Positions 4,047-23,822 of a stretch of 64,000 nt of DNA are shown one piece after another. The notes beneath the pieces were generated by a model. It worked only from the letters and a program-made list of their open reading frames with translations, was not told the DNA's origin and made no database searches. Source of the stretch: Marinobacterium mangrovicola (GTDB lineage Bacteria; Pseudomonadota; Gammaproteobacteria; Pseudomonadales; Balneatricaceae); assembly GCF_004339595.1 (NCBI RefSeq), contig NZ_SMFU01000007.1, forward strand, positions 742,658 to 806,657. Direction: 5' to 3'. The translations under genes were made by a program, and so were the position numbers. Each line of letters opens with the position of its first letter. The stretch's first letter is position 1.

Positions 4047-4715
4047 ATGCGTTTACTGGTCGTAGAAGATGACATCATTCTGGGAGAGTCGCTTACCCAG
4101 CGCCTGCGCCGCAGCGGGCAGGGCGTGGATCTGGCCAGGAGCGGTGCTGAAGCCGTTTCGCTGATCAAACTTCAGCCCTACGACCTGGTGCTGCTCGACC
4201 TTAACCTGCCGGATACCAGCGGCGAAGCGGTGCTGAACAGTCTGCGTCGGCAGAATGACACCACGCCGGTACTGGTGTTGACCGCCCGCGATCAGATCGA
4301 AGATCGCATCCAGCTGCTGGATGCCGGCGCCGATGACTACCTGACCAAACCTTTCGATTTTGGAGAGCTGGAAGCCCGCATGCGCGCCCTGTTGCGACGC
4401 AACCAGGGGCAGGCGAGAGATCAGGTCAGCTTCGGCAACGTGGTGCTGGACCGCCGTGCGTGCAGCCTCAGCGTAGCGGGTAAACCGGTAGAGTTGAAAT
4501 CACGAGAGTTTCGACTGCTGGAGATCTTTATGAACGAGCCCAAAAGGGTTTGGAGTAAAGAGGCGCTGCTGGAGCATATATACAGCTTTGATGAGCACCC
4601 TAACCCCAGCGTTATTGAGATCTATGTGACCCGTGTACGCAAGCTGCTGCAGGGGAGCGATATCCAGATCCGGACCATTCGCGGTCTGGGTTACCTGCTA
4701 GAACAATCCAAATGA
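4047..4715 (+). CDS. OmpR/PhoB-family response regulator (TctD-like)
   Basis: Two-component regulator of 222 residues. The receiver domain (1-120) has the acidic pair Asp8/Asp9, the phospho-acceptor Asp51 (LLDLNLP) and Lys in LTKPF. A winged-helix DNA-binding domain follows (about 125-220, ending RTIRGLGYLL). The next gene, a histidine kinase with a TctE-like sensor region, overlaps by four bases and is its partner. TctDE-type pairs usually control uptake of carboxylates. The tandem 11-bp repeat upstream of the TAXI-TRAP genes at 7264-7285 has the spacing this family binds, so that operon is the likely target. Confidence 0.9.
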   Translation: MRLLVVEDDIILGESLTQRLRRSGQGVDLARSGAEAVSLIKLQPYDLVLLDLNLPDTSGEAVLNSLRRQNDTTPVLVLTARDQIEDRIQLLDAGADDYLTKPFDFGELEARMRALLRRNQGQARDQVSFGNVVLDRRACSLSVAGKPVELKSREFRLLEIFMNEPKRVWSKEALLEHIYSFDEHPNPSVIEIYVTRVRKLLQGSDIQIRTIRGLGYLLEQSK

Positions 4716-6118
4716 GTGAGCGCCGCGGCTCTATCCGTCGCCAGATGTTGCTGATGACCTCCATGGTGCTGGTTGTTGTGGGTGGCGCCGCGCTCTGGTC
4801 TGCACACCTTTATGCGGATCGGGCGGCCAGGCTCTCCTACGACCGGTTGCTGCGCGGCGCCGCGCTGCAGATCTCCGAGAATATCCATATGCTCGATGGC
4901 CGTGTGGTGGCGGACCTGCCCGCGTCGGCATTCGACATGCTGGCGATGGCACCGCGGGATCGCGCTTTTTACGCCATCATCGATAGTGGTAAACGGGTAG
5001 TGACCGGCTACTCGGATCTGCCTTCCGTTCCTTTCGATACTTTGCTTGAAGCGCGCGACCGGGAAGGGCAGTTTCAACCCACGCTTTACGATGTCGATTA
5101 CCGTGGCGAAATGGTGCGTTTTCTCGGTGTCGCCAAGCGGCTGATCGAGGCGGATAACGCTGAAACCGTTTACATCGTGGTTGGCCAGACGCTGAAGGCA
5201 AGAAAGGCGCTTGCCGATGAAGTGGGCTGGTTTGTCCTTCAGTTTGTCGCACTGTTTTTTGTGCTCACGCTCGCGCTTTTGATGCTGGGAATCTGGCGCG
5301 TGTTAAGACCGCTTAATCGTCTGCAGCACGCCATCGCCGAGCGTTCGCCCACGGATCTACAGCCCCTGGGAAATGATGTGCCTCGGGAGATAGCGCCACT
5401 GCTCGACACCCTTAATTACTTCATGGCGCAGCTGCAGATCTCTCTGGATCGGCTCAAGCGATTTACCGCTGAGGCGGCGCATCAGATCCGTACGCCGCTG
5501 GCGGGGCTCCACTCCCAGGCGCAGAACGCTCTGGATGAGCCAGACCCCGAGATCCGCCAGCGGCAGTTGAGTCATGTGCTGGAGTGCAGCGAGAGCCTGA
5601 CACGAACCGTCAATCAACTGCTGCAGCACGCCAACCTAACTCACCGTTTTCAAAGCCAGCCGCGGGTGAAGGTATCCCTGCGGCAGATCGCCACCGAGGT
5701 ATGTCGTTCACTGGTGATCTGGGGGCTGGATCGTGGGGTCGAGCTGGTTTATGAGGGCGACGAGGATGTAAGCGTCACCGGAGACGCCTTTGCGCTTGAG
5801 CAGATGATTCGCAACCTGGTTGAAAACGCAGTCAAGTACAGCCCCGCCGGCAGTCTGGTGACTCTTCGCCTGACGGCGGCTGGCGCCGGTGCGGAGCTCG
5901 AGGTCAGTGACCAAGGGCCGGGTATCAGTGATGAGGAGAAACCCCGCGTCTTCGAACGCTTCTATCGCAGCCGCAACATAGATCAACCGGGCAGCGGGCT
6001 GGGCCTGAGCATCGCCCGGGAGGTGGCTCAGTACCATGGAGCCGAACTGGAGCTGTATGATAATCAACCTCAGGGTCTGGTTGTGCGGGTGCGATTCAAC
6101 GGGGAGGCCATTCATTGA
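4712..6118 (+). CDS. Sensor histidine kinase (TctE-like)
   Basis: Membrane kinase of 468 residues partnering the preceding regulator. A first membrane helix (about 12-32) and a second (about 170-195) flank a periplasmic domain that resembles the 2CSK_N sensor of TctE-type kinases. A HAMP-like linker follows. The phospho-acceptor His257 lies in AAHQIRTPLAGL, and the ATPase domain has an N box (NLVENAVKYSPAG) and G boxes (DQGPGIS, GSGLGLSIA). The ATG overlaps the regulator stop (ATGA), and the gene itself overlaps the next, so regulator, kinase and binding protein are made together. Confidence 0.9.
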   Translation: MSERRGSIRRQMLLMTSMVLVVVGGAALWSAHLYADRAARLSYDRLLRGAALQISENIHMLDGRVVADLPASAFDMLAMAPRDRAFYAIIDSGKRVVTGYSDLPSVPFDTLLEARDREGQFQPTLYDVDYRGEMVRFLGVAKRLIEADNAETVYIVVGQTLKARKALADEVGWFVLQFVALFFVLTLALLMLGIWRVLRPLNRLQHAIAERSPTDLQPLGNDVPREIAPLLDTLNYFMAQLQISLDRLKRFTAEAAHQIRTPLAGLHSQAQNALDEPDPEIRQRQLSHVLECSESLTRTVNQLLQHANLTHRFQSQPRVKVSLRQIATEVCRSLVIWGLDRGVELVYEGDEDVSVTGDAFALEQMIRNLVENAVKYSPAGSLVTLRLTAAGAGAELEVSDQGPGISDEEKPRVFERFYRSRNIDQPGSGLGLSIAREVAQYHGAELELYDNQPQGLVVRVRFNGEAIH

Positions 6119-7203
6119 AAGCGCTGACCTCATTGCTGCTCGGCTTCTGTCTGGTCGCGATTGGCGGCGCGCAGGCCGCTACCACCGAGGTATTTAAGCC
6201 GGCCAACGTTGACGCTTCTCCCGACCTGGTTATCTCCGGTGTTGCTCCCGTTGCCAGGATCGCTCCGTTTCTGCAGAGCTTTGCCGAACGTGAGGGGCTG
6301 GTAGTGCGTTATACCGAACGGATGACCAACGAGGTCTCTCGGCTGGCCACCAAAGAGCAGGGGGGCTCGCCTGATCTGATCCTGAGTTCTGCCATGGAGC
6401 AGCAGCTTAAGCTGGTGAATGACGGCTACGCCCAGCCTTATCGCTCCGACGTTATCCGTGAACTGCCGGAATGGGCCCAGTGGCGTGATGAGCTGTTTGC
6501 TTACGCTTTTGAACCCATCGTTATGGTGATCAACCGGGATCTGCTGGCGGGAGCCGAATTGCCGCAAAGCCGGGACCAGCTGCTGCAGCTGATCCGTGCC
6601 AAGGGCCCGCTGGTGGATGGGAAAATCGGCATGACCGATATCGAAACCGTGGGGCTGGGCTACCTGACCTGGGCGCATGACAGCCGGCAGTCGCGTACCT
6701 ACGGACAGCTGCTGGAAACCTTTGGTAATGCTCACCTGCGTCTTTACCCGGACAGCGAGTCTGTGCTGCAGGCGCTGCTTAAGGGGGAGATATTTATCGC
6801 CTATAACCTGGTGGGTTCCTACGCTTTCGACTTCTCAAACCGCTATCCCTGGATAACCACGGTGATGCCCGCGGACTATACCTCGGTCCTGATGCGCACT
6901 GCGTTGATTCCGAAATCGGCGCAGCATCCGGAAGCGGCCCGGCGTTTTCTCGATGACCTGCTGTCGACCTCAGGTCAGGCGAGGCTGGGTGAGCAGACCG
7001 GCTTGATCCCGGTTATCAGTGAAGCGGGCAGCAGTGATACCTTTGCGTTCCTGCGTGAGAAGAGCCACGGCATCTTCAGGCCGATCCCTCTAAGCCTGCA
7101 GTTGTTGCTGCAGACCGATGCGGAAAAGCGCCGGCTGTTACTTAATGAGTGGCGGGCTGCGGTCTACCCGCAGCAGAAACCGGCGACTGACAGCGCTCCA
7201 TAA
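6115..7203 (+). CDS. Orphan periplasmic solute-binding protein (ABC type)
   Basis: Exported binding protein of 362 residues with a clear signal peptide (KALTSLLLGFCLVAIGGAQA, cut after AQA). The fold resembles iron(III)/phosphonate-type binding proteins of family 1, with VRYTERMTNEVSRL early in the mature chain. The TTG start at 6115 overlaps the kinase stop and has GGGGAGG upstream. No ABC permease or ATPase is nearby, so it may present ligand to the kinase's periplasmic domain instead of feeding a transporter. The ligand cannot be read from the sequence. A role in the neighbouring TRAP transporter is possible but would be unusual, since that system has its own binding protein. Confidence 0.8.
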   Translation: MKALTSLLLGFCLVAIGGAQAATTEVFKPANVDASPDLVISGVAPVARIAPFLQSFAEREGLVVRYTERMTNEVSRLATKEQGGSPDLILSSAMEQQLKLVNDGYAQPYRSDVIRELPEWAQWRDELFAYAFEPIVMVINRDLLAGAELPQSRDQLLQLIRAKGPLVDGKIGMTDIETVGLGYLTWAHDSRQSRTYGQLLETFGNAHLRLYPDSESVLQALLKGEIFIAYNLVGSYAFDFSNRYPWITTVMPADYTSVLMRTALIPKSAQHPEAARRFLDDLLSTSGQARLGEQTGLIPVISEAGSSDTFAFLREKSHGIFRPIPLSLQLLLQTDAEKRRLLLNEWRAAVYPQQKPATDSAP

Positions 7204-7347: not shown

Positions 7348-7374
7348 CAACAATAAGCAAAATTGGAGCTAACC

Positions 7375-8310
7375 ATGTTGAAACGCGTAATGACCGCGAC
7401 AGTGCTTTCCCTCAGCCTGTCAGCAGGCGCAGTCTCTGCCGATGATCGTATCTCTATCGGTACCGGCGGCACCGGCGGACTTTTCTATGTGATCGGTGCC
7501 GGTATCTCTGAAGTGATCAACAAGCATCTGGACGGTGTGACCGCCCGCGCTGAAGTGACCGGCGCGTCGGTGGAAAACAACCACCGTGTTGCCGCCGGGC
7601 AGATGCAGCTCGGTTTCTCATCCTCCTCCACACTTTATGAAGCCAAGCATGGCGAAGGCCCGTTCGAGGCGCGTGGTTCGCTGGACGTGGCCGCTATCGC
7701 TTATCTCTATCCTGCCGTGCTGCAGGTTGCTACCGTGGATGGGACAGGTGTCGAATCCTTTGACGATCTGAAGGGCAAACGCGTCAGCATCGGCCCACCG
7801 GGAAGCAACGCTGCAGTATTGGCGACCCGTTTGCTACAGGCTTATGGCGTGTTTGACGATATTACGCCGCGTTTCCTCTCCTACACCGAGGGTGTCAAAG
7901 CGCTGAACGATGGGCAGGTTGATGCCGCAGTTGTGCTGGCCGGTGCGCCGACAGCCTCTTTGATCGACCTGGATTCACAGGCCGATATGCGTCTGCTCTC
8001 TGCCGATGCGGGCGTCCTTTCTGGCCTGATCGAGAAATATCCGTTCTACCAGTCCTACACCCTGAAAGCCGGTACCTATTCCGATCAGACTGAAGAGATC
8101 AGCGTGATCAACGATCCGGCGGTCCTGTTTGCCAGCGGCAGTGCCGATCAGAGCAAAATCTACGATATCACCAACGCCATCTTCTCCAACCTGGAGGAGC
8201 TGCAGCAGGTGCATCCTCTGGCGAAAGAGATTCAGCCGGAAACCGCGACGCAGACGCCGATCCCGCTGCACCCCGGTGCACAGAAGTACTTCGATCAGTC
8301 AGCTCAATAA
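7375..8310 (+). CDS. TAXI-family TRAP transporter binding protein
   Basis: Periplasmic receptor of 311 residues with a signal peptide (cut after AVSA). The mature protein opens with ISIGTGGTGGLFYVIGAGISEVIN, the TAXI-family hallmark, and carries the usual GPPGSNAAVLATRLL segment. It captures an organic anion, often a dicarboxylate or glutamate in known members, and hands it to the fused permease encoded 12 bases downstream. The ATG at 7375 has GGAGC nicely spaced upstream; the upstream in-frame TTG at 7363 is not needed. Expression is probably set by the two-component pair upstream. Confidence 0.92.
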   Translation: MLKRVMTATVLSLSLSAGAVSADDRISIGTGGTGGLFYVIGAGISEVINKHLDGVTARAEVTGASVENNHRVAAGQMQLGFSSSSTLYEAKHGEGPFEARGSLDVAAIAYLYPAVLQVATVDGTGVESFDDLKGKRVSIGPPGSNAAVLATRLLQAYGVFDDITPRFLSYTEGVKALNDGQVDAAVVLAGAPTASLIDLDSQADMRLLSADAGVLSGLIEKYPFYQSYTLKAGTYSDQTEEISVINDPAVLFASGSADQSKIYDITNAIFSNLEELQQVHPLAKEIQPETATQTPIPLHPGAQKYFDQSAQ

Positions 8311-8322
8311 CAGGGGGCTGTG

Positions 8323-10263
8323 ATGGCGCAGTTTAATCTGTCGCGCCTGCTGCTGGAGTCCCCTCAGGGGGGCTCCATTGAGCGTGGCGTATTTTCCGGT
8401 TTGTTTTGTCTGCTCGCTACAGCCGTGGCGGCGCTGGTGCTTTATGGCGCTTACTATGGCGGTATCACCGCGCTGCTGCTGCGCTCGAGCTTTTTCTCCC
8501 TGGTGGCCTGTGCCGGTCTAATCTATTACGCCCTGCAGATGGGGCGCTGGGCACGGATTCCACTTTATATTCTGGCGTTTGTCGCGCTGATTCCGGGGCC
8601 GTACCTCTGGCACAGCTACATGGATATCATCATGCGCGGCGCCATGTCGGTCCCCGAGGATACCTGGGTGTTCCTGGCGCTGATCAGCGTGGTGTTCCTG
8701 TTCGTACGCATCGCCGTGGGCTGGGCGCTGGTGGTGCTGATGGCGCTGGCGTTTCTGTACGCCTGGTTCGGTTACCTGATCCCCGGTAAATATGGCCATG
8801 GTGGCTATGGTCTGGACCGGCTCACCTCAACGCTGATGCTGTCCACGGAAGGGGTCTATGGCGTCCCCATGGGCGTAGCCGTTGAATACATATTTCTTTT
8901 CGGTCTGTTTGGTACGCTGCTGACCAAAATCGGCACGGGTTCGGTATTTGTCGATATCGCACGCGGCCTTACCGGTCGTGTACAGGGCGGCCCCGGTTTG
9001 TCAGCCGCGCTCTCCAGTGCCTTGCTGGGTTCTCTGAACGGCAGCGCAGTGGCGAACGTGGTCACCACAGGCACCTTTACCATTCCGTTGATGAAAAAGG
9101 TGGGTTACAGCCCGAAGCTGGCTGGCGCCATTGAAGCGGCGGCATCCTCCGCGGGGCAAATTATGCCGCCGGTGATGGGCGCTGCGGCCTTCCTGATGGC
9201 AGAGATGATCGGTATTCCCTACGCCGAGGTCGCGCTGGCGGCGCTGGTGCCGGCATTGCTTTATCTCTTCGCATTGATGTTGGCGGTACGCCTGGAAGCG
9301 GGGCGCCTGGGCCTGGAACGCGATACTGCGGCTGGGTTGAAACTGCTGGGCGAGACGCTGCGCAGCCGCGGCTATCTGCTGGCGCCGTTGATTGCGCTGA
9401 TCGGCCTGATGATCGCCGGTAAGTCGCCGACCCAAGCGGCGGTGCTCGGTATCGTCGTCGGCCTGTTGATCAGCCCCTGGAGCAAGCTGACCCGTGTCGG
9501 CCCGGTGGACCTGGTGGAATGCTGTAAGGATACGCTGATTAACACGCTGCCGATCGTAGCGGCGGTAGCCTCAGCGGGCGTGATCATCGGGATCCTTAAC
9601 CTCACTGGTATGGGGCTGATGGTTTCCGGCCTGATTATCGAGATCGGTGGCGGAAACCTCTGGGCGGTGCTGCTGTTGACCGCTCTGGCATCGTTTATCC
9701 TCGGCATGGGGCTGCCCACCTCGGCGGCTTATCTGCTGCTGGCGGTGCTGGTAGCGCCGGCGATGACTCAGCTGGGCATGAACGTGTTGTCCGCCCATAT
9801 GTTCATCTTTTACTTCGGCCTGGTTTCCGCGATTACACCACCGGTGGCACTGGCGGCCTACGCGGCGGCAACCATTTCCGGCGCCAAGCCAAACGAGACT
9901 GCAGTGGAGGCGATGCGCCTTGGTTTTGTAAAACTGCTGATACCTTTCCTGTTCGTCACCATGCCGGGGATCCTGTTGATAGGCGATGGCATCAGCATTG
10001 CCGTTGCGATCGCACTGACCACCCTGGCGACCTTCTCCATGGGGGTGGGATTCTCGGGCTGGTTGGGCAGCACGCTCAGTACAGCTCAGCGCTCACTCTA
10101 TGTGGTGGCAGCGGTGCTGATCGCCTGGCCGGAACTGGCGACCAATACCGATCTGTTCGTATTGGCTGCCCGTGGGGCAGGGATGGTTATCCTGGTCGCG
10201 ATGCTGGTCCGGGGGCATCTGGAACATCGCTGTTCGCAGCGTGCCAGCCTCGCCACGGATTAA
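8323..10263 (+). CDS. TRAP transporter fused permease (4TM/12TM)
   Basis: Inner-membrane permease of 646 residues in which the small (DctQ-like) and large (DctM-like) subunits are one chain, as usual for TAXI systems. Many hydrophobic segments span the chain. The DctM core shows GSLNGSAVANVVTTGTFTIPLMKKVGY, GQIMPPVMGAAAF and GMGLPTSAAYLLLAVLVAPA. It uses an ion gradient to import the ligand delivered by the TAXI protein. GTG 8320 and ATG 8323 are both possible starts. The operon ends in a strong terminator at 10276-10312. Confidence 0.93.
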   Translation: MAQFNLSRLLLESPQGGSIERGVFSGLFCLLATAVAALVLYGAYYGGITALLLRSSFFSLVACAGLIYYALQMGRWARIPLYILAFVALIPGPYLWHSYMDIIMRGAMSVPEDTWVFLALISVVFLFVRIAVGWALVVLMALAFLYAWFGYLIPGKYGHGGYGLDRLTSTLMLSTEGVYGVPMGVAVEYIFLFGLFGTLLTKIGTGSVFVDIARGLTGRVQGGPGLSAALSSALLGSLNGSAVANVVTTGTFTIPLMKKVGYSPKLAGAIEAAASSAGQIMPPVMGAAAFLMAEMIGIPYAEVALAALVPALLYLFALMLAVRLEAGRLGLERDTAAGLKLLGETLRSRGYLLAPLIALIGLMIAGKSPTQAAVLGIVVGLLISPWSKLTRVGPVDLVECCKDTLINTLPIVAAVASAGVIIGILNLTGMGLMVSGLIIEIGGGNLWAVLLLTALASFILGMGLPTSAAYLLLAVLVAPAMTQLGMNVLSAHMFIFYFGLVSAITPPVALAAYAAATISGAKPNETAVEAMRLGFVKLLIPFLFVTMPGILLIGDGISIAVAIALTTLATFSMGVGFSGWLGSTLSTAQRSLYVVAAVLIAWPELATNTDLFVLAARGAGMVILVAMLVRGHLEHRCSQRASLATD

Positions 10264-12020: not shown

Positions 12021-13943
12021 ATGAGTGATGTGAATGCTGAACTGCCGACGATTCTGGTCGGACCGATCCTGCGCCGGGTTGAAGCCAACCGGCTGGTTAT
12101 CTGGTTACTCACCACGGCGGAGGTCCCGCTGGGGCTCAAGCTTACCTGCGATGGCCAAACGCTATTGGAGCGGGAGCTCAGTGGCGAGGATGTATGGACC
12201 CTGCCTCTTGGTGAACGCTGCTGGCTGCGTCTGGTGGATATAGAACCCGACAGTGATTTTCCTCTGGATAGCTCGATTGAATATGACCTGAGCTATAAAG
12301 ACGCGGATCGATGGGTCTCGCTGGCGGAGTGGGGCAGTGAGCTGCTTTATCCCGGCGAATCTCTCCCCTCGTTTCAGGTAAAATCAAGGCTGGGCGCGAT
12401 CTTCCACGGTTCCTGCCGTAAACCTCATCATCCGGGCGCAGATGGCATGGCCCGCGCCGATACCTGGCTGGAGCAGCACCGCAACGAGCCTGATACCTGG
12501 CCGGCGGTGATGATGCTCAGCGGCGATCAGATCTATGCCGATGATGTTGCCGGTCCCATGCTCGTGGCCTGTCATGAGCTGTCCGATCGCCTGGGACTCT
12601 GGCATGAGCAGTTTGAAGACGCCTGTGTGGCGGATACCTCAGAGCTGGTCAGCAGCGAGCATTGTTACTACCAACGTGAACGCCTGTTGCCCGAAGGCAA
12701 GACAGGGGAGACCGCACGCAGGTCGTTGTTCAGCGGCGTAAAGAAACCGATCTTTACCTCCGATAACGCGCATAACCACCTGATCAGCTTTGCCGAGATG
12801 ATCGCCGCCTACTGCCTGGCCTGGTCGCCCTGTGCCTGGAGCGAACTGAAGCTGGCGCTGCCTGATGGGCTTGATGACCAGCAGACGACGCTCTATTACC
12901 AGGAGCGAGAGGTGATCGATGCCTTCCGCGAGCAGCTACCCCGGGTAAGACGGGTGATGGCCCATCTACCCACCTACATGATCTTTGACGATCATGATGT
13001 CACCGATGACTGGAACCTTTCTGCCGCCTGGGAGGTATCCGCCTATGGCCATCCGTTTTCGCGGCGGATTATCGGTAACGCCCTGATCGCCTACCTGCTC
13101 TGCCAGGGCTTGGGCAACAACCCTGGCCCGCTGAAGAAAAATCTCGGTGAGCCGGTGGAACGATGGTTAGGCGATCGAAGACCGGCTCCTCATGACGAGC
13201 TGATCGAGACATTGACCCGCTTTGAGGGCTGGGATTATCTGATTCCAATGGAGCCGGCGGTGCTGGTTCTGGATACGCGCACCCGACGCTGGCGCGCGGA
13301 GAGCAATCTGGCCAGCCCCTCGGGTCTGATGGACTGGGAGGCGCTGACCGAGCTGCAGCAGCAACTGCTGGACCGGGAGGCGGTGGTGCTGGTTTCGGCG
13401 GCGCCCGTATTCGGTGTGAAGTTGATCGAAACCGTGCAGAAGGTATTCACCTGGTTTGGTCATCCACTGATGGTGGATGCGGAAAACTGGATGGCTCATC
13501 CGGGCGCCGCCAATGTGATGCTTAATATCTTTCGCCATACCCGTACGCCCAAGCACTTCGTCATACTGTCGGGCGATGTGCACTACTCCTTTGTCTACGA
13601 TATCGAGATCCGCTTTCGCAAGGGCGGGCCAAAAATCTGGCAGATCACCAGCAGTGGTTTGAAAAACGAGTTTCCGGACCGTCTGCTGAAGGTATTTGAT
13701 CGCCTCAACCGCTGGCTTTACGCACCCTGGTCGCCGCTTAACTGGTTTACCCGCAGGCGTCGCATGAGAGTATCGCCCAGGCGGCCCGAAGGGGCTGATG
13801 AGGGATGCCGCCTGGTGAATAGTTCCGGCATGGGGCTGGTGCGTTTCGCTGCCGATGGCGAGCCGGAAGAGGTGTGGCAGCTGGGTGCCGATGGCCGCGA
13901 TACCCGCTTTTCACTCAGCGACGAGGAGGAGCACTGGGGCTGA
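12021..13943 (+). CDS. PhoD-like metallophosphatase
   Basis: Protein of 640 residues with metal-binding motifs of the PhoD/purple-phosphatase type: GSCRKPHHPG, LSGDQIYADD, FDDHDVTDDW and LSGDVHYSF, in that order. The family hydrolyses phosphomonoesters or diesters using Fe/Ca or related metals. Unlike classical exported PhoD it has no signal peptide, so a cytoplasmic role is likely. The start is uncertain: ATG 12021 (PMSDVN reading from GTG 12015) has no strong ribosome site. No phosphate-stress genes are adjacent. Confidence 0.82.
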   Translation: MSDVNAELPTILVGPILRRVEANRLVIWLLTTAEVPLGLKLTCDGQTLLERELSGEDVWTLPLGERCWLRLVDIEPDSDFPLDSSIEYDLSYKDADRWVSLAEWGSELLYPGESLPSFQVKSRLGAIFHGSCRKPHHPGADGMARADTWLEQHRNEPDTWPAVMMLSGDQIYADDVAGPMLVACHELSDRLGLWHEQFEDACVADTSELVSSEHCYYQRERLLPEGKTGETARRSLFSGVKKPIFTSDNAHNHLISFAEMIAAYCLAWSPCAWSELKLALPDGLDDQQTTLYYQEREVIDAFREQLPRVRRVMAHLPTYMIFDDHDVTDDWNLSAAWEVSAYGHPFSRRIIGNALIAYLLCQGLGNNPGPLKKNLGEPVERWLGDRRPAPHDELIETLTRFEGWDYLIPMEPAVLVLDTRTRRWRAESNLASPSGLMDWEALTELQQQLLDREAVVLVSAAPVFGVKLIETVQKVFTWFGHPLMVDAENWMAHPGAANVMLNIFRHTRTPKHFVILSGDVHYSFVYDIEIRFRKGGPKIWQITSSGLKNEFPDRLLKVFDRLNRWLYAPWSPLNWFTRRRRMRVSPRRPEGADEGCRLVNSSGMGLVRFAADGEPEEVWQLGADGRDTRFSLSDEEEHWG

Positions 13944-14058
13944 TATGAGGGCATTCGTGCAATAAGCTGATCTCGGACATTCCTATATCTTACAGGGATG
14001 TTAGTCTTAATCCCCATTATATATATTAGATAGTTCTTATTTTGGCGGATCCCCAGCT

Positions 14059-16140
14059 ATGCCCTTCCAAAGGTTGCTGCTTTGGCTGACCGGCAGTCTG
14101 ATACTGCTTGCGCTTGGCGCACTTATTCTCTGGCCCACCGACTCAGGGCAACCCCTGGCTGAGCAGAAAGAAACGGCGGTTGCGCCAGCTCAGTATCGGT
14201 TGCGCATGGGCTACAACATGCCCGAAGGCAGCGTGATGCACGCGGCAGCGGTTCGCCTTGCAGAGCAGGTGAAGCAAGACTCTGGCGGGCGGCTGCAGAT
14301 AGAGCTCTACCCCAACCAGGCGCTGGGCAATGACCACCAGATGCTGGAAATGGCTCGCGATAGCGAACTGGATATGGTGCTCACGCCCACGGCGAAGCTG
14401 AGTATCTCGCTGCCAGAGATGCAGTATGCCGACCTGCCGTTTTATTTTCCCTCTCAGGATGATGTCTACGCGCTGCTAGATGGCGAACCCGGCCAGATAC
14501 TGCTGAGCCGGATGGCGCGCATCGGTCTGGTGGGGCTCACGTTCTGGGGTAACGGCTTTAAACAGTTTACCGCCAATGAGTCCTTGCTCACGCCTAAGCA
14601 GTTTGAGGGCAAGCGGTTCCGGGTAATGAAAAGCCGGCTGCTGAAGCAACAGTTCGAGATGCTGGGAGCCGAGGCGGTGCCGATCGATTTTCATCAGGTA
14701 CGGGCAGCGCTGCGTGATGGTGTGGTCGATGGTCAGGAAAACCCTCTCGCGGCGATTTATGCCGTTGGTATTCATCAGGAACAGAGTCATCTGATTCTGT
14801 CGTCCCACGCCTATCTCGCCTACGTTCTTTCCATCAGTGAAACCAGTTTCAATCGGCTTCCCGGGCCGTTGCAGCGGCTGCTTATCGCCAGTGCTCGGGA
14901 GCAGACCGCCTGGCAGCGTGACGAGACGGAGCGGCGTGAACAGGGGCTCCTGAAAGAAATCGAAGATTCCGGCGTCACTATCGAACAGCTGAGCGAGGCG
15001 CAGCGAGCAAAGTTCAGGGAACGCCTCAGGCTGCTGGTGGAACGGTTCGAGCCGATCATCGGGGCTGATCTGATCGCCATTAGCGATGAGTACCTGATGG
15101 AGCGTTACGCGGCTAGTGAGCGCAGCTTGATCGGGATCGATATGGATTTGACGCTCGCGAATGGTGATGTCGGGGTGGATATTAAACGCGGAGCCGAGCT
15201 GGCGCTGAAAAATTTTCCCGAGCTGGGTTCCGTTGCCATGAATAACAGCGGTCAGCCGAGTCTGGCCCTGCGCAACATGGAACGGTTTGTCGGAAACCCG
15301 CGGGTGATCGCCATACTCGGTGGTACCAGCGCGGCGACGTTAAGAGAACAGCTGCCGCTGATCAACGAGGCCGGTATCCCGGTGCTGCTGCCCTGGGTGG
15401 TGGAAGCGAGCCTGTTTAAACAGGATGGCAATCGCACTCTGTTTTCCATCGGTATGTCCAGCGATCATCTGGCGGAGCGGATTCTTGCATCTGCCCAGGA
15501 AAAGTCCGTAAAGCGGATCGGCCTGGTAACCGAGAACAGCGCTACGGGCATCGAACTGGCTGGCCAGCTTGAGCGGTCACTGAGGGGGAGCGGAGTAGCG
15601 CTCGGCAATCTTGTTAAGTTGAATGTGGGCAGTTCCGAGGTGGGTGCTGAGCAGTTGCAGGCACTGATCGATAGCAGTGAATACTGGGTTGTCGCGTTAG
15701 GTCGGCCGGCTCAGTATCCGGTACTGAGGCAGCTGGCGGTAGTGGCCGGAGAGCACAGTGTGCTATCACTGTGGAACAGTGTGCCCAGTGGACAGAAGGT
15801 GATCGAATGCCTGCGCACCGACATCGATGCCCAGGCCTACAATCAGTTGGAACGGCAGTATATTGAACACTATGGCGTGACTCCGCAGGTGCCGATGGCA
15901 CTGGTAAGGGGTTACGATGCGGGGCTGTTACTGTCAGAATCGATCGAACAACTTCAACATAAGGAGCTCGCTCTGAGCCGCGAAAATCTCCTCACTCAGC
16001 TTGAGAATCTGCCGCCTGTGCAGGGGGTGATTCGCCACTATGATCCGGCTTACGCACCCGGCCAGCATCGGGCCCTGAGCTTCGATGACTATGCTGTTTC
16101 GCCTCAGGGTTGCAGGCTGGAAGGGAGTGTCGCGCAGTGA
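14059..16140 (+). CDS. Fused DctP-type and LivK-type periplasmic binding protein
   Basis: A 693-residue chain with two binding-protein domains in series. An N-terminal hydrophobic segment (about 4-26) is a signal peptide or anchor. Residues about 45-345 match TRAP DctP receptors (LRMGYNMPEGSVMHAAA; Arg188 in FRVMKS, the position that grips the carboxylate; GQENP at 225). Residues about 355-690 match the ABC LivK/Peripla_BP_6 fold (GIDMDLTLANGDVGVDIKRG; NPRVIAILGGTSAA). No TRAP or ABC permease lies beside it. The stop overlaps the GTG of a membrane GGDEF-EAL gene, so the likely job is ligand sensing for c-di-GMP control. No clear ribosome site is seen at the ATG. Confidence 0.85.
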   Translation: MPFQRLLLWLTGSLILLALGALILWPTDSGQPLAEQKETAVAPAQYRLRMGYNMPEGSVMHAAAVRLAEQVKQDSGGRLQIELYPNQALGNDHQMLEMARDSELDMVLTPTAKLSISLPEMQYADLPFYFPSQDDVYALLDGEPGQILLSRMARIGLVGLTFWGNGFKQFTANESLLTPKQFEGKRFRVMKSRLLKQQFEMLGAEAVPIDFHQVRAALRDGVVDGQENPLAAIYAVGIHQEQSHLILSSHAYLAYVLSISETSFNRLPGPLQRLLIASAREQTAWQRDETERREQGLLKEIEDSGVTIEQLSEAQRAKFRERLRLLVERFEPIIGADLIAISDEYLMERYAASERSLIGIDMDLTLANGDVGVDIKRGAELALKNFPELGSVAMNNSGQPSLALRNMERFVGNPRVIAILGGTSAATLREQLPLINEAGIPVLLPWVVEASLFKQDGNRTLFSIGMSSDHLAERILASAQEKSVKRIGLVTENSATGIELAGQLERSLRGSGVALGNLVKLNVGSSEVGAEQLQALIDSSEYWVVALGRPAQYPVLRQLAVVAGEHSVLSLWNSVPSGQKVIECLRTDIDAQAYNQLERQYIEHYGVTPQVPMALVRGYDAGLLLSESIEQLQHKELALSRENLLTQLENLPPVQGVIRHYDPAYAPGQHRALSFDDYAVSPQGCRLEGSVAQ

Positions 16141-18470
16141 GCCACAGGTTTGAAATGCTCAGTTCGCCGCAACAGACCCGCAGCCTCAAGCGACGCCTTG
16201 TATTCAAAGTGGCCGGCTTTGTGGCGCTGGCGATGGTTGTGATTACCCTGGCAGTGGTTTACATGATGAGCCAGGAGCTTGGTCGTCAGGCACAGCGTAT
16301 GCTCTGGGAATCCGCCCGTTCATCCCAGATCCAGCTGGAGAACCGGGTGGGTTACCTGGTCGAGGCCAGCCGTCGCCTGGCGGATAACCCGTTTATGGTT
16401 AATGGCCTGATCGACAGTCGCGCCCGTGAGGAAGATCTCCCCAAGCTGGTCGAGAACTTCGCCGAAGGGACTTCGCTCAGCACCCTGGCGTTGCTTGATT
16501 ACGATGGTCGCCCGGTTTACCAGGCGCAGGACTGGCGCCCGGAGTTCAACCAGTCGCCGGAACTGCGTGCTGCGCTTGCCATGGGCAATACCGCCCTCTA
16601 CATGGAACCCGGCACGGGGCAGTTATTGATCATTGCCCCGATCAGTTATTACGAAACGACTCAGGGGGCGCTGGTCGTCGGTTTTGATCTCAACCGGCTG
16701 GTGCTCAGCCATGCGGTGCGTGAAGAGAGTTCCTACCTCAAGCTGTTTAGCGGCGGGCAACAGGTTGTTGGCCTGAACTACAACGACGAGACCGAATACC
16801 TGACGACACGCTTGGCCGCCAGTGAGCAGACGCCGCTACTGGCGCGTCTCGATCTGAGCCTGGAGGCAGGTGTTCCCAAGCAGAATTTTGATTCAATCGT
16901 TAAGACGACCCTGTCCCGCTTTATCGGTATCGGTCTGCTGCTGACACTGGCGTCGGCCATGCTGGCGGCAGCCATAGGTCAGAGTATCGCCAGACCCATA
17001 CTGGAACTCTACCGTCGTGTCAGAGCGGTGCCGTACCGGGCATGCAGTCCACTGGGGACCGGTGACGAACTCGATGTATTGGCCAGCGCGTTTGACCATC
17101 GTACCCAGGCGCTTAAGTCTGCCCAGCAGGAGCTGGAGCGCCAGCGCGACCGCTTCCGCCATGAAGCCAATCACGACATGTTGACCGGGCTTCCCAACCG
17201 TTTCAACTTCGATCAGCGCCTGCTGGAGATCATCGGTCGTCACCATTCCGGCAATCGCGTGTTTGCGGTTATTTTTATCGATCTGGATCGCTTCAAACTG
17301 ATAAACGACAGTCTGGGGCATTCGGTGGGGGATGCCCTGCTGCAGACGGTGTCTCAGCGGCTGAAGCTGGAGGTGGATGGACGTGACCAGCTGTTCCGCC
17401 ACGGCGGTGACGAGTTCATTCTGATCAGTGAGGTGGATGGCGATGAATCCCGGCTGCACCAGCTGCTGGATCGACTGATCCACACGCTGAGCGCTCCGGT
17501 GCGCCATGGCGAGCGTGATCTTGATGTCAATGCCAGCATCGGTGTGACCTTCTATCCGCAGGATGGGCTGGACGCCCAGACCCTGGTTCGTAATGCTGAT
17601 ATCGCCATGTATGAGGCCAAGAGGAAGGGCGGCGCTCGCTACAAGCTGTTTGATCCGAGTATGAGTGAATACGCCTTCAACCGTATGGAGACGGAAGCGG
17701 GCCTTCGCAAGGCGATCGAGAACCGGGAACTGGAGGTTTACTACCAGCCCCAGGTGGATATGAACAGCGGCCGCCTGACCGGGACCGAGGCGCTCGTGCG
17801 CTGGCAGCATCCGGAAAAGGGGCTGGTTATGCCTGGGGCATTTATTCCGTTGATCGAAGAGTCCCGTCTGATCGTCGATATTGGCGAATACGTGTTGCGT
17901 GAAGCCTGCCGTGTGCAGGCCGCCTGGTGCCGTGCCGGCTATGAGCCGGGCAGGGTGTCGGTGAATCTGGCCGGGGCGCAGCTGCATGATTCCGGGCTGG
18001 ACCGTATTATCGCCCGGATTCTGACCGAAACTGGCTGTAAGCCCGAATGGCTTGAGCTGGAGGTGACCGAAGGTTTCATCATGGAAGACCCCGCCGCGTC
18101 GGTGCCGATGCTGAAGCGGTTGCGTGATATGGGCATTAGCCTGGCGATCGATGACTTCGGAACGGGCTACTCGTCGCTGGCCTACCTGAAGCGGTTGCCG
18201 GTAAGCCGTCTGAAGATAGATCAGTCCTTTGTCCGTAATTCGGTGATGGATCCTGATGATGCGGTGATCATCGAAGCGATCATCGCGTTGGCCGGAAAAC
18301 TGAAACTGGGGTTGATTGCAGAGGGGGTGGAGACTCACAATCAGACCGAGCTGCTTCTTGAGCTCGGCTGTGATCAGGCGCAGGGGTACCTTTACGGTCG
18401 ACCCGTGCCTCATCAAGAGCTGGAGCTGATGCTCAAGAGCGGCCGTGGCGGACACCAGATCGTTCAGTAA
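16137..18470 (+). CDS. Membrane GGDEF-EAL protein with periplasmic sensor
   Basis: A 777-residue inner-membrane enzyme of cyclic di-GMP turnover. A first helix (about 20-45) and a second near 255-280 bracket a periplasmic sensor of CACHE-like size; a short linker leads to GGDEF (motif HGGDEF at about 423) and EAL (EALVRW at about 551). The phosphodiesterase residues look intact: EAL, NLAGAQL, EVTEGF, DDFGTGYSSL, KIDQSF, EGVET. The cyclase motif is intact too, but the inhibitory RxxD site upstream of it is DGRD, so product inhibition is probably lost. The GTG start at 16137 overlaps the upstream binding-protein stop and has GGAAGGGAG in front. The net activity cannot be told from sequence. Confidence 0.92.
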   Translation: MSHRFEMLSSPQQTRSLKRRLVFKVAGFVALAMVVITLAVVYMMSQELGRQAQRMLWESARSSQIQLENRVGYLVEASRRLADNPFMVNGLIDSRAREEDLPKLVENFAEGTSLSTLALLDYDGRPVYQAQDWRPEFNQSPELRAALAMGNTALYMEPGTGQLLIIAPISYYETTQGALVVGFDLNRLVLSHAVREESSYLKLFSGGQQVVGLNYNDETEYLTTRLAASEQTPLLARLDLSLEAGVPKQNFDSIVKTTLSRFIGIGLLLTLASAMLAAAIGQSIARPILELYRRVRAVPYRACSPLGTGDELDVLASAFDHRTQALKSAQQELERQRDRFRHEANHDMLTGLPNRFNFDQRLLEIIGRHHSGNRVFAVIFIDLDRFKLINDSLGHSVGDALLQTVSQRLKLEVDGRDQLFRHGGDEFILISEVDGDESRLHQLLDRLIHTLSAPVRHGERDLDVNASIGVTFYPQDGLDAQTLVRNADIAMYEAKRKGGARYKLFDPSMSEYAFNRMETEAGLRKAIENRELEVYYQPQVDMNSGRLTGTEALVRWQHPEKGLVMPGAFIPLIEESRLIVDIGEYVLREACRVQAAWCRAGYEPGRVSVNLAGAQLHDSGLDRIIARILTETGCKPEWLELEVTEGFIMEDPAASVPMLKRLRDMGISLAIDDFGTGYSSLAYLKRLPVSRLKIDQSFVRNSVMDPDDAVIIEAIIALAGKLKLGLIAEGVETHNQTELLLELGCDQAQGYLYGRPVPHQELELMLKSGRGGHQIVQ

Positions 18471-18479
18471 TGAGACAGC

Positions 18480-19250
18480 ATGCAAGGCTTTATCAAAACC
18501 AATCCAGTGGCGGGTTCCGACAGCCTGTTGTGCGAGGCCAAGGGGCTTGAGCTGCTTGAGACTGCGCTCAATCGCGCGGGCATCGTTAAAGTGCGCGTAC
18601 CGGCACGGCTGGAGATCAGGCGCGACAGGCTCTGCCTGGAACTGATCAATTCCGTATCGGCCAGCGAACAGCAGATGAGTCTGCTCGGTGAGTCTCTGGC
18701 TCAGATCCATAAACAACGGCATAGCTATTACGGTCTCGCCAGCGGCAACTTCATCGGTTTATCCCCCCAGGCCAACATCAAGAGCGATAACTGGGGGCGG
18801 TTCTTCCTTGATTACCGTCTTGGGTTTCAGATCAGGCGTATCGCCGACAGTGCGGTTCGCGAGCGCTTTCTGGCCGAGCTGGAGCGCTGTCGAGAGGCGC
18901 TCGAGAATTTCCTCAACGCTACCAGCCGTGGACCGGCACTGGTGCATGGTGACCTCTGGTCCGGCAACGTGATGTTTGATCGAAACGGCCAGAATGTCTG
19001 GCTGATCGACCCGGCGGTCTACTATGCGGATCCGGATGTGGACCTGGCGATGACCGAGATGTTCGGTGGTTTCTCGAGCGCCTTCTACAGCGCTTATGAT
19101 GCGGTGTTCCCCAGGGCCGATGATTACCCGCTGAAGCGGCGCATCTACAACTTCTATCACTATCTGAATCACTACAACCTGTTCGGCGATGCTTATCTGT
19201 CCGGCTGTGAAGAGGGGCTGGCAGCACTCGATGAAACTCTATATCGCTGA
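18480..19250 (+). CDS. Fructosamine kinase family protein
   Basis: Cytoplasmic kinase-fold protein of 256 residues (fructosamine-3-kinase/YniA family), which phosphorylates glycated amines or ketosamines so that they fall apart, a repair of sugar damage. Seen: LLGESLAQIHKQ, then SGNFIGLSPQANI, and the catalytic block LVHGDLWSGNVMF followed by the metal-binding WLIDPAVYYADPDVDLAM. It starts 10 bases after the GGDEF-EAL stop and its end overlaps topB by 20 bases. The shared strand suggests read-through rather than a common job. Confidence 0.88.
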   Translation: MQGFIKTNPVAGSDSLLCEAKGLELLETALNRAGIVKVRVPARLEIRRDRLCLELINSVSASEQQMSLLGESLAQIHKQRHSYYGLASGNFIGLSPQANIKSDNWGRFFLDYRLGFQIRRIADSAVRERFLAELERCREALENFLNATSRGPALVHGDLWSGNVMFDRNGQNVWLIDPAVYYADPDVDLAMTEMFGGFSSAFYSAYDAVFPRADDYPLKRRIYNFYHYLNHYNLFGDAYLSGCEEGLAALDETLYR

Positions 19251-22121: not shown

Positions 22122-23822
22122 TCAAGGCTGGGGATTGGTTGGGTTAGTATGTTGCAACCGAGCAAAATTCAGGAGAGCATCGATCATGGCATTGAGGCCG
22201 TTGCCGCGGCTAGGGCTCAGATGTCGCTCCAGATCGAGTTCGCGAATCCGCTCAGGCAGATCCAGCGAAAGCACTTCCTGTGGGGTGAGGCCATTGATAT
22301 TTTGTAATAGGAGGCCAAGGAGGGCTCTTAGTATACGCGCATCCGCGTCCGCAAGACACGCCATCCGGGCCTCTTCATCGACTTTTGTTACCATCCAGAC
22401 GCGGGTTTCACAGCCGTGCAGGCGATATTCGTCCCGTTTCCAGGTATCGGGTAGCGGTGGTAGCTGGCTGCCGATCTGCATCAGAATGCTGTAACGGCTA
22501 TTCCAGTCGGGTGCCTGACGCACCTGTTCAACCAGGCTGCTTTCCAGGTTTTGCGCTATTTCACTGCCCGCTGGTGCAGAGACTTGTGTGCGTGACTGAT
22601 CGATCAGCTGCTGCAGGCCGCTGGCCAAGGCTTCCGCTTCGTCGAGGGTGTTGTAGAAAGCGAAGGATGCACGGATCGATCCGGGGATGCCCAGCGCGCT
22701 CATCAGCGGCATGGCACAGTGATGTCCGGCCCGCACCGCAATTCCCTGACGATCCAGCCAAAGTCCCACATCCTGAGGGTGTTGGCCCTCGAGCAGAAAC
22801 GAGATCAGCGCCGCCTGTTCTGGGCCGGCAGCCAGAGAGCGAAACCCTTTCACCTGGCCACAACACTCCAGCGCGTGGCTCAGCAGCTTCTGCTCGTGTT
22901 GCTCAAGCGCTTTTCGATCGCTCTCCCGCAGGTAACGGATTGCGGCGCCAAGACCGATAACGCCGGCGATATCCGGGGTGCCGGCCTCAAAGCGAAACGG
23001 CAGACCGGCGAAACGGGTCTCATCGAAACTGACCTGCTCAATCATCTCGCCGCCGCTTTGCCAGGGCGGCATCTGTTCAAGGATCGCTTCGCGTGCCCAG
23101 AGTGCACCGATGCCGCTGGGACCGAACAGCTTATGACCCGAGAAGGCGTAGAAATCGCAGCCTATATCACCCACATCGATGTCGGTGTGAGGCAGCCCCT
23201 GGGCGCCATCGACCAGCACCGGGACCTGTGCTTCCCTTGCCATGCGGCACATCGCTTTAATCGGGTAGATGCTGCCCAGCGCGTTGGAGACATGGCTGAT
23301 GGCGGCGATCGCAGGACCTCTGCCGAGCAGTTCGCCGAAGAGCTTCAGGTCGATCTCGCCCGTAGCGCAGGGCAGCACGTCGATCACGGCGCCGGCTTCC
23401 CGAGCAATCTGCTGCCAGGGCACGATATTGGCGTGATGGGCGGATTCCATCAGCAGTACGCGTGAACCCGGCTTGAGTCTCGGCTTGAGGTAGCTGTAAG
23501 CGACCAGATTGATCGCCTCGGTGGTGCCGCGTGTCCAGACGATTTCATTCTGATGGGCGGCGCCGATCCAGTCGGCGAGCTCCTGGCGCACCTGTTCAAA
23601 CGCCAGAGTTGCGTCGGCGGAAAGGGCATGGGCCGCGCGGTGGACGTTGGCGTTACTGCGTTTGTAGTAGTTGCTGATGGCGTCGATAACGCTGCGGGGT
23701 TTCTGCGTGGTCGCAGCGTTATCGAGGTAGATCAGGGGCTTGCCGTGGACGCGCGAAGAGAGAATCGGGAAGTCGCGTCTCAGGCGATTAGGATCAGCCC
23801 TGTGCTGCATGTTGCTGGGCAT
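22122..23822 (-). CDS. Fused cysteine desulfurase - SufE/CsdE sulfur acceptor
   Basis: One 566-residue chain joins a group II cysteine desulfurase (about 1-410) to a SufE/CsdE-type acceptor (about 420-560). The desulfurase shows pyridoxal-phosphate Lys231 (FSGHK) and the persulfide Cys369 in RAGHHCAMP. The acceptor shows its sulfur-carrying Cys471 in LHGCETRVWM. In most bacteria these are separate proteins (SufS-SufE, CsdA-CsdE), with sulfur moving between the two cysteines; here the partners are tethered. No suf or isc scaffold genes are nearby, which favours a CsdAE-like role. The start could be ATG 23822 or ATG 23810. The gene overlaps the DUF2069 gene upstream by about 30 bases. Confidence 0.93.
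   Translation of the reverse strand: MPSNMQHRADPNRLRRDFPILSSRVHGKPLIYLDNAATTQKPRSVIDAISNYYKRSNANVHRAAHALSADATLAFEQVRQELADWIGAAHQNEIVWTRGTTEAINLVAYSYLKPRLKPGSRVLLMESAHHANIVPWQQIAREAGAVIDVLPCATGEIDLKLFGELLGRGPAIAAISHVSNALGSIYPIKAMCRMAREAQVPVLVDGAQGLPHTDIDVGDIGCDFYAFSGHKLFGPSGIGALWAREAILEQMPPWQSGGEMIEQVSFDETRFAGLPFRFEAGTPDIAGVIGLGAAIRYLRESDRKALEQHEQKLLSHALECCGQVKGFRSLAAGPEQAALISFLLEGQHPQDVGLWLDRQGIAVRAGHHCAMPLMSALGIPGSIRASFAFYNTLDEAEALASGLQQLIDQSRTQVSAPAGSEIAQNLESSLVEQVRQAPDWNSRYSILMQIGSQLPPLPDTWKRDEYRLHGCETRVWMVTKVDEEARMACLADADARILRALLGLLLQNINGLTPQEVLSLDLPERIRELDLERHLSPSRGNGLNAMIDALLNFARLQHTNPTNPQP

Follow-up and report, generated by a model that had tools for sequence, protein, structure and literature searches.

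A DctP-LivK fusion protein as the likely binding subunit of a membrane GGDEF-EAL receptor in Marinobacterium mangrovicola

Introduction

Does a protein assembled from two transport-type receptors serve a transporter, or does it inform the signaling enzyme encoded beside it? The question arises in a 64,000-nucleotide stretch of Marinobacterium mangrovicola DNA (the window), in which a TRAP DctP-type and an ABC LivK-type binding protein are joined in one chain directly ahead of a gene for a membrane GGDEF-EAL protein. Binding proteins that drive membrane receptors are common, at least 13 families being on record (PMC9602780), and according to a review SBP_bac_3 was the only part of the PBP clan that had been studied in c-di-GMP networks (PMC8846402). 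An earlier note on this DNA had proposed that the pair acts as a two-ligand sensor setting c-di-GMP.

Results

The fusion receptor is encoded at 14059..16140 (+ strand) and has 693 residues. A domain search, which the earlier note had called for, finds two real binding domains and not one, both over their Pfam cut-offs. The DctP half (residues 50 to 330; 14206..15048) scores 252 bits with PF03480 against a cut-off of 23.4, spanning profile positions 1 to 283 of 286 (E 9.7e-75), and also passes TIGR00787 of the NCBI model set (210; cut-off, 175.05). The LivK half (residues 369 to 658; 15163..16032) scores 59.4 bits with Peripla_BP_6 (cut-off, 31.7; profile positions 15 to 317 of 343; E 6.5e-16); seven fusions from other lineages reach 85 to 129 bits. 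At E 0.001, DctP, Peripla_BP_6, and ANF_receptor are the only Pfam families found in the protein. Both receptors had been called complete by their motifs, which holds for DctP, where Arg188 and GQENP are present, but not for the LivK half, which is eroded in the window's lineage (see below). Among 72 aligned fusions, window included, R188 and E227 occur in all 72 and N228 in 70. An arginine has been assigned a role in carboxylate binding by DctP-type proteins (PMC4646407). R188 aligns with the arginine of solved DctP proteins and, on our reading of that alignment, would be their conserved carboxylate-binding residue.

An AlphaFold model built from the 72 aligned rows is confident (pLDDT, 91.3; pTM, 0.87). 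With phmmer, the whole chain matches solved DctP proteins (best, 4ovs; E 2e-48), as does its first half alone (5e-49); the second half alone gives weak matches (best E, 0.002), and the second half of a homologue, L070, matches a Liv-type protein at 1.5e-19. All 50 solved structures that Foldseek lists for the model are DctP type, so the evidence for a Liv fold in the second half comes from its sequence and from model confidence. The model also has a hydrophobic N-terminal helix (residues 3 to 24; 14065..14130), a putative membrane anchor or signal peptide. None of the 72 fusions has a lipobox at its N terminus, and many of the N termini look by eye like an uncleaved anchor; an A-x-A motif precedes the DctP domain in 34 of the 72, so cleavage may still occur. 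No sigma-70-like site was found within 13850-18600, compared to 1.8 expected by shuffling.

The partner gene (16137..18470, + strand) likely starts at GTG 16137, with ATG 16155 as the alternative. This GTG overlaps the fusion's TGA stop (16138-16140) as GTGA, as the earlier note had seen, and is preceded by a probable ribosome-binding site, GGAAGGGAG (16119..16127). The longest open reading frame (ORF) of the Marinobacterium lutimaris partner starts with the identical 4-base overlap. The predicted protein consists of a Cache-like sensor module comprising TM1, a periplasmic domain, TM2, and a connector (16185..17126); a GGDEF domain (17166..17633; Pfam E 6.5e-45), whose motif is present and whose G423-F427 are invariant in 10 of 10 aligned partners; and an EAL domain (17703..18404; Pfam E 3.9e-71), both enzymatic domains lying well over cut-off. 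The EAL residues E551-A-L-x-R, N610, DD672-673, and E729, which we take to be catalytic, are all present. On the opposite strand, a 609-residue open frame (16893-18722, −) runs antisense to this gene and is partly open in relatives; it is most likely a high-GC shadow.

Among named organisms, M. lutimaris has the fusion's nearest relative. When 144 related genomes were searched at E 1e-40, 23 had a match, 10 of them (the window's own included) with a full fusion and 13 with single DctP frames. An order-wide search at E 1e-90 matched 2 of 390 genomes, again counting the window's own, so the system is patchy in its order, and no relative was found among plasmid records at E 1e-60. The tandem form extends further than the earlier note had known, to at least four phyla. 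When two short peptide patterns were run against GTDB species genomes, at least 127 relatives emerged, a lower bound because of the pattern step, and the best 80 of the 127 were kept. By record title these comprise 55 Pseudomonadota, 13 Campylobacterota, 7 Nitrospirota, 1 Thermodesulfobacteriota, 3 without a phylum, and 1 labeled Myxococcota. The last (L100) is titled only Deltaproteobacteria bacterium and its fusion groups with one from Desulfobulbaceae, for which reason we put the phylum count at four or more. The architecture is found in 72 full-length proteins down to 30% identity, that is, 71 loci plus the window, with nine loci omitted from the alignment as cut, short, or broken (L079, L099, L102, L119, L126, L134, L136, L138, and L140). 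All 10 of the fusions given to Pfam have both receptor domains over cut-off. In one further fusion (L172, 1-1482), part of the LivK domain goes unrecognized by the family HMM, possibly an independent loss.

What surrounds these fusions is strikingly constant on one side. In all 9 other fusion-bearing genomes of the 144, a homologous GGDEF-EAL gene follows the fusion directly, and genes beyond the pair vary between genera. In one of the relatives, M. ramblicola (G006; L056 5453-7777, sharing its genome with L066), the GGDEF-EAL partner lies in two frames, either a pseudogene or a sequencing error. Across the 80 loci, coupling was scored as a protein with the sensor module, recognized by an HMM built from 10 GGDEF-EAL partners, starting on the same strand no more than 600 bases after the fusion. 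The homologous Cache-like sensor is next downstream in 75 of 75 testable loci (E 2e-53 to 1e-164), which answers the earlier note's proposal to list the neighbors of proteins with the same architecture. The five other loci (L099, L102, L136, L138, and L140) end their contigs inside the fusion match, and in L138 the fusion frame is broken besides. In L134 the frame of the fusion itself is broken, leaving a tail before the sensor. Measured to the longest ORF start, the gap is at most 50 bases in 70 of the 75 loci and an exact 4-base overlap in 32. Receptor and sensor are separate chains in the window and in all 75.

Because the pair is kept in 9 of 9 relatives and the homologous sensor in 75 of 75 loci, a signaling role with the GGDEF-EAL protein is well supported by context. 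We consider it likely that the fusion is the ligand-binding subunit, and the GGDEF-EAL protein the transmembrane signaling subunit, of a binding protein-dependent receptor, and that this explains the locus as a whole.

The sensor module is common to partners of all output types. By HMM, 49 of the 75 partners are histidine kinases (one of them cut by a contig end), 22 are GGDEF-EAL proteins (the EAL part being split in one, L066), and 1 has GGDEF alone; 2 are cut by contig ends (L092 and L133), and in L072 a sensor-only frame is followed by an ORF with the GGDEF-EAL part. Pfam agrees with the HMM class in 10 of 10 partners given. With 49 of 75 partners being kinases, a general c-di-GMP role for the family is ruled out; we take it to be a binding protein-dependent receptor module with exchangeable outputs. 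Phylogenetic trees were generated by quick searches, with SH-aLRT support only. On the tree of 72 fusions, output changed between kinase and c-di-GMP types at least twice, once within Campylobacterota, in a GGDEF-EAL group that includes the sister pair L142 (kinase) and L130 (GGDEF). The sensor alignment has 67 rows, 66 of the 75 partners plus the window (omitted, L072, L108, L117, L120, L121, L129, L133, L134, and L143). Over 64 rows, receptor and sensor distances correlate at 0.83 for DctP and 0.63 for LivK, or 0.86 and 0.85 without Marinobacterium, a correlation that may reflect shared ancestry only.

Of the earlier proposal, then, the signaling receptor paired with a GGDEF-EAL enzyme stands, c-di-GMP does not hold as the general output, and integration of two ligands is doubtful in the window's lineage because the LivK half has lost family-conserved residues. 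For a two-ligand integrator, both domains would bind, one a carboxylate and the other an amino acid or amide, and the enzyme would read both. Both domains do exceed their cut-offs, the model is confident across both, and the tested clades outside the Marinobacterium lineage keep most conserved columns in each. Conservation was scored at columns conserved in at least 85% of rows, with Marinobacterium, genus g6, and the tested clade left out of the column choice. Nine other clades and three single rows, serving as controls, keep 0.82 to 0.97 of the LivK columns and 0.80 to 1.00 of the DctP columns. In contrast, the six Marinobacterium rows keep 0.63 of the LivK columns and 0.93 of the DctP columns, and the two g6 rows keep 0.48 and 0.91. 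The window protein itself retains 0.60 of the 52 LivK columns, and the family residues R463, W496, E551, H571, and Q586 are S, T, A, L, and R in it. The branch leading to this lineage's LivK group carries 1.36 changes per column. We therefore regard two-ligand integration in this lineage as unlikely, though it is the alternative that fares best.

Rates of change give a similar picture. For pairs with DctP identity of 0.5 to 0.8, the ratio of LivK to DctP differences averages 2.00 in this lineage (26 nonindependent pairs; range, 1.77 to 2.26) and 1.47 elsewhere (1,656 nonindependent pairs; 5 to 95%, 1.24 to 1.75; maximum, 2.43). Compared with M. lutimaris, the window has dN values of 0.097 for DctP, 0.288 for LivK, and 0.063 for the periplasmic part of the sensor, and dN/dS is 0.083, 0.129, and 0.052, respectively, with dS near saturation. 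As dN/dS is below 1, the LivK change points to relaxed or altered constraint and carries no sign of positive selection. With the LivK half eroded, DctP is probably the live receptor in the window's lineage.

Could the sensor do the sensing itself? Its N-terminal 330 residues are modeled (pLDDT, 90.3) as a domain of two parts flanked by a long helix on either side, and the predicted fold resembles dCache sensors: its solved neighbors include DctB, sporulation kinase D, PctA, and CqsR, all of them dCache sensors, as well as integrative chemoreceptor models. Such a fold could itself bind ligand, which counts against our main explanation, and the Cache-like domain would then be the real sensor, the fusion merely buffering or delivering its ligand. 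The presence among the neighbors of direct ligand binders, such as DctB and PctA, favors this, though not strongly. Against it, and likewise not strongly, dCache_1 (PF02743) scores 24.9 bits in the partner, under its cut-off of 45, and falls under the cut-off wherever it appears among 10 partners. We hold this reading to be improbable.

A third possibility is that the fusion serves a TRAP or ABC permease whose genes lie elsewhere, its place by the enzyme being incidental or regulatory. The NCBI model set does name the fusion a TRAP subunit, and the 4.98-Mb genome contains 33 DctP matches. A TAXI-type TRAP system also lies upstream, with genes for an NMT1_3-type receptor (7363-8310) and then a DctM-type permease (8320-10263), both by Pfam. 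The earlier claim that no TRAP or ABC transport gene lies beside the fusion thus holds for the immediate neighbors but overlooks this permease, 3.8 kb upstream with three other genes between. Permeases were sought by BLAST among all ORFs of the 80 loci, with three sets of queries: hydrophobic ORF pieces beside seven DctP loci of the window's genome, the TAXI permease itself, and Liv genes from L186; by Pfam, nine own-genome query pieces are six DctM, two DctQ, and one unrecognized. Apart from the TAXI permease of M. lutimaris (L064), no DctQ- or DctM-like match is present in the ORFs of the 80 loci, in a search whose loci differ in length and whose queries are fragments, so that a distant permease could be missed.

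In raw form, 40 of the 80 loci gave some match. We discarded the matches of query L002+0_371, which run antisense within fusion genes and so shadow DctP; L064, L085, L090, L098, and L125 then remained. In L125 a pair of Liv-type ATPases precedes the fusion by about 6 kb, and ABC-type ORFs were matched in L085, L090, and L098, the L090 match being an exporter-type ABC protein and the two checked in L098 being ABC ATPases. No TRAP permease belongs to the fusion-sensor unit. The prediction that orthologues might sit with full transporters, given in the earlier note as the contrary case, is thus not borne out, and with the neighbor a sensor in 75 of 75 testable loci and no DctQ- or DctM-like match in the ORFs of the 80 loci besides the TAXI permease of M. 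lutimaris, we reject the transporter-subunit reading as very improbable.

The same upstream region holds a possible second binding protein-sensor pair, a few kilobases before the fusion: at 4712-7203, a histidine kinase gene with a 2CSK_N sensor part overlaps a gene for an SBP_bac_11-like extracellular solute-binding protein. Elsewhere in the window (22122-23822, −), cysteine desulfurase and SufE form one chain (Aminotran_5 plus SufE).

Comparison with M. lutimaris (L064) in 250-base steps gives DNA identities of 0.89 to 1.0 from about 8.25 to 14.0 kb, a sharp drop at the fusion start to 0.56 to 0.84 over the fusion and most of the enzyme, and from there 0.84 to 0.90 up to about 19.25 kb, beyond which M. 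lutimaris differs. Correspondingly, dS is 0.01 to 0.28 for the three upstream genes, 1.1 to 1.5 for the fusion-enzyme pair, and 0.6 for the gene after it. In this one species pair, fusion and enzyme seem to have been replaced together, as a block, in one lineage or the other. Of the topoisomerase gene that comes next in the window, M. lutimaris has just a 121-residue piece (L064 13149-13511).

To approach the origin of the fusion, we turned the search around and started from the sensor. With the sensor alone as query, matches came from 10 of 369 genomes in the class (E 1e-20) and from 33 of 398 in the phylum (E 1e-12); both figures count the window's own genome. We inspected 41 of the distinct places listed, including the window's and leaving aside 10 listed without a locus. 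In 33 of the 41 the fusion lies directly upstream, recognized in short stretches as a frame with DctP and LivK parts. Five have a stand-alone LivK-type protein there (L153, L155, L184, L185, and L194), 2 have neither, and in 1 the contig start cuts the sensor (L182); DctP alone lies upstream in none of the 41. The two with neither are sensor-kinases of the family (L191 5623-8985 and L192 1387-5331) lacking a detected fusion or LivK gene directly upstream, and because of them we conclude that the sensor can occur without a receptor gene, a point against our main explanation. Pfam confirms the LivK-type identity of all five stand-alone proteins, whose sensors carry GGDEF-EAL (one), GGDEF (one), or kinase (three) outputs. 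Their sensor matches are weak (E about 1e-15 to 1e-32), so the five pairs are distant kin. Since in the places examined the sensor is found with LivK but without DctP and not the reverse, a later addition of DctP is suggested: a LivK-sensor pair probably came first and then gained DctP.

In the DctP tree, the fused domains (34 of the 72 sampled) form one side of a branch with support of 100, which separates them from 26 single-DctP rows; the latter contain copies of one gene, 58 of the 60 rows in the tree being distinct. With one DctP clade among sampled rows and the same architecture in 72 full-length proteins, an assembly error or chance joining of two genes is refuted as the source of the fusion, its probability being negligible.

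The LivK tree, which used 7 of the 10 best Peripla_BP_6 loci of the window's genome, places fused and stand-alone sensory domains together, apart from six own-genome Liv-type proteins chosen as the outgroup. Fused rows do not form a single clean clade, L092 falling outside the rest without a resolved position, and long branches make the deep order unsure. The nearest transport relative in the genome is L044, the receptor of a Liv-type ABC system (L186 3313-7963); it adjoins branched-chain-type permease and ATPase genes, for which reason the sensory LivK may derive from a transport receptor. Around L063, which holds the best single-DctP match outside the genus, no sensor, DctP, or LivK HMM match was found among the chosen ORFs, a weak negative because the ORF choice dropped its DctP gene.

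Discussion

The fusion is probably a detector of outside chemicals and no part of a transporter. As the ligand-binding subunit of a receptor, it would sit in the periplasm, perhaps anchored to the membrane, where its DctP domain would close on a carboxylate; the nearest solved relatives of this domain are C4-dicarboxylate and sugar-acid receptors. Closure would alter how the fusion is seated on the Cache-like periplasmic domain, and the altered seating could tip the enzyme toward c-di-GMP synthesis or breakdown, much as in NspS-MbaA. As for the LivK-type domain, it is probably the sensor's older partner and may be the part that docks to it; in other lineages a second ligand might be bound there. 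The two domains, the gene coupling, the exchange of outputs, the single DctP clade among sampled rows, and the LivK erosion are observed, and from them we infer the physical contact, the ligands, the direction of the response, the anchoring, and the late addition of DctP.

On which domain touches the sensor, the evidence is divided. The stand-alone LivK-sensor pairs would point to LivK, but its fast change in the genus would point otherwise: LivK as the main docking surface fits poorly because it changes fastest in Marinobacterium while the sensor is conserved. A wider reading, which we offer tentatively and think less likely than not, is that of a receptor class in at least four phyla in which a once-lone LivK sensor became the carrier of a DctP domain placed in front, with a common Cache-like subunit and phosphorelay-kinase, cyclase, or cyclase-phosphodiesterase output, LivK being a ligand-free coupler in Marinobacterium and a second genus. 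If LivK did turn into such a coupler, one family would show a passage from one-ligand to two-ligand and back to one-ligand sensing.

The principle has precedents. In NspS-MbaA of Vibrio cholerae, as in the window, a periplasmic solute-binding protein is paired with a membrane GGDEF-EAL enzyme, and NspS occupancy sets c-di-GMP synthesis or breakdown: norspermidine-bound NspS favors cyclase activity, and the free enzyme degrades c-di-GMP (PMC8967002). The window pair has the same gene layout of a binding protein gene coupled to a membrane GGDEF-EAL gene with a periplasmic domain. However, NspS is one polyamine-binding protein, whereas the window receptor combines DctP with a LivK-type domain and has sister systems with kinase outputs; the fusion is not of the NspS family, lacking any polyamine-binding family match at E 0.001 (Pfam). 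ScrB-ScrC of Vibrio parahaemolyticus likewise pairs, in one operon, a periplasmic binding protein with a c-di-GMP enzyme of dual function (PMC10269520), although ScrB binds an autoinducer made by ScrA. Two tandem periplasmic binding-protein domains feed one output in the diguanylate cyclase CdgH and the kinase BvgS (PMC5431781, PMC4352136). Those domains share the chain of the enzyme, whereas the window receptor is a separate chain. They are also of one family, and the window fusion joins two. TorT-TorS and XylFII-LytS are cases in which a separate binding protein drives a histidine kinase, the binding proteins being single and of families other than those in the fusion. To TRAP DctP and Liv-type ABC receptors the fusion domains belong by sequence, and DctP also by fold; unlike these, the fusion has no detected permease partner, is one chain, and is coupled to a sensor. 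Among open-licence PubMed Central papers we recognized no description of a DctP-LivK receptor architecture. The principle is thus known from NspS-MbaA and ScrB-ScrC, and the hetero-tandem receptor with exchangeable outputs is a new form of it.

The fusion matches NCBI models that name TRAP transporter subunits, while genome context indicates a receptor subunit. If this is true, some of the TRAP receptors counted in genomes would be signaling proteins. The series of LivK alone, LivK with DctP, and DctP with an eroded LivK would make the sharing of one output by two binding proteins testable. Judging from their names, groups with the fusion presumably include sulfur oxidizers, denitrifiers, and magnetotactic bacteria, in which c-di-GMP and phosphorelay signaling would gain a defined class of nutrient input.
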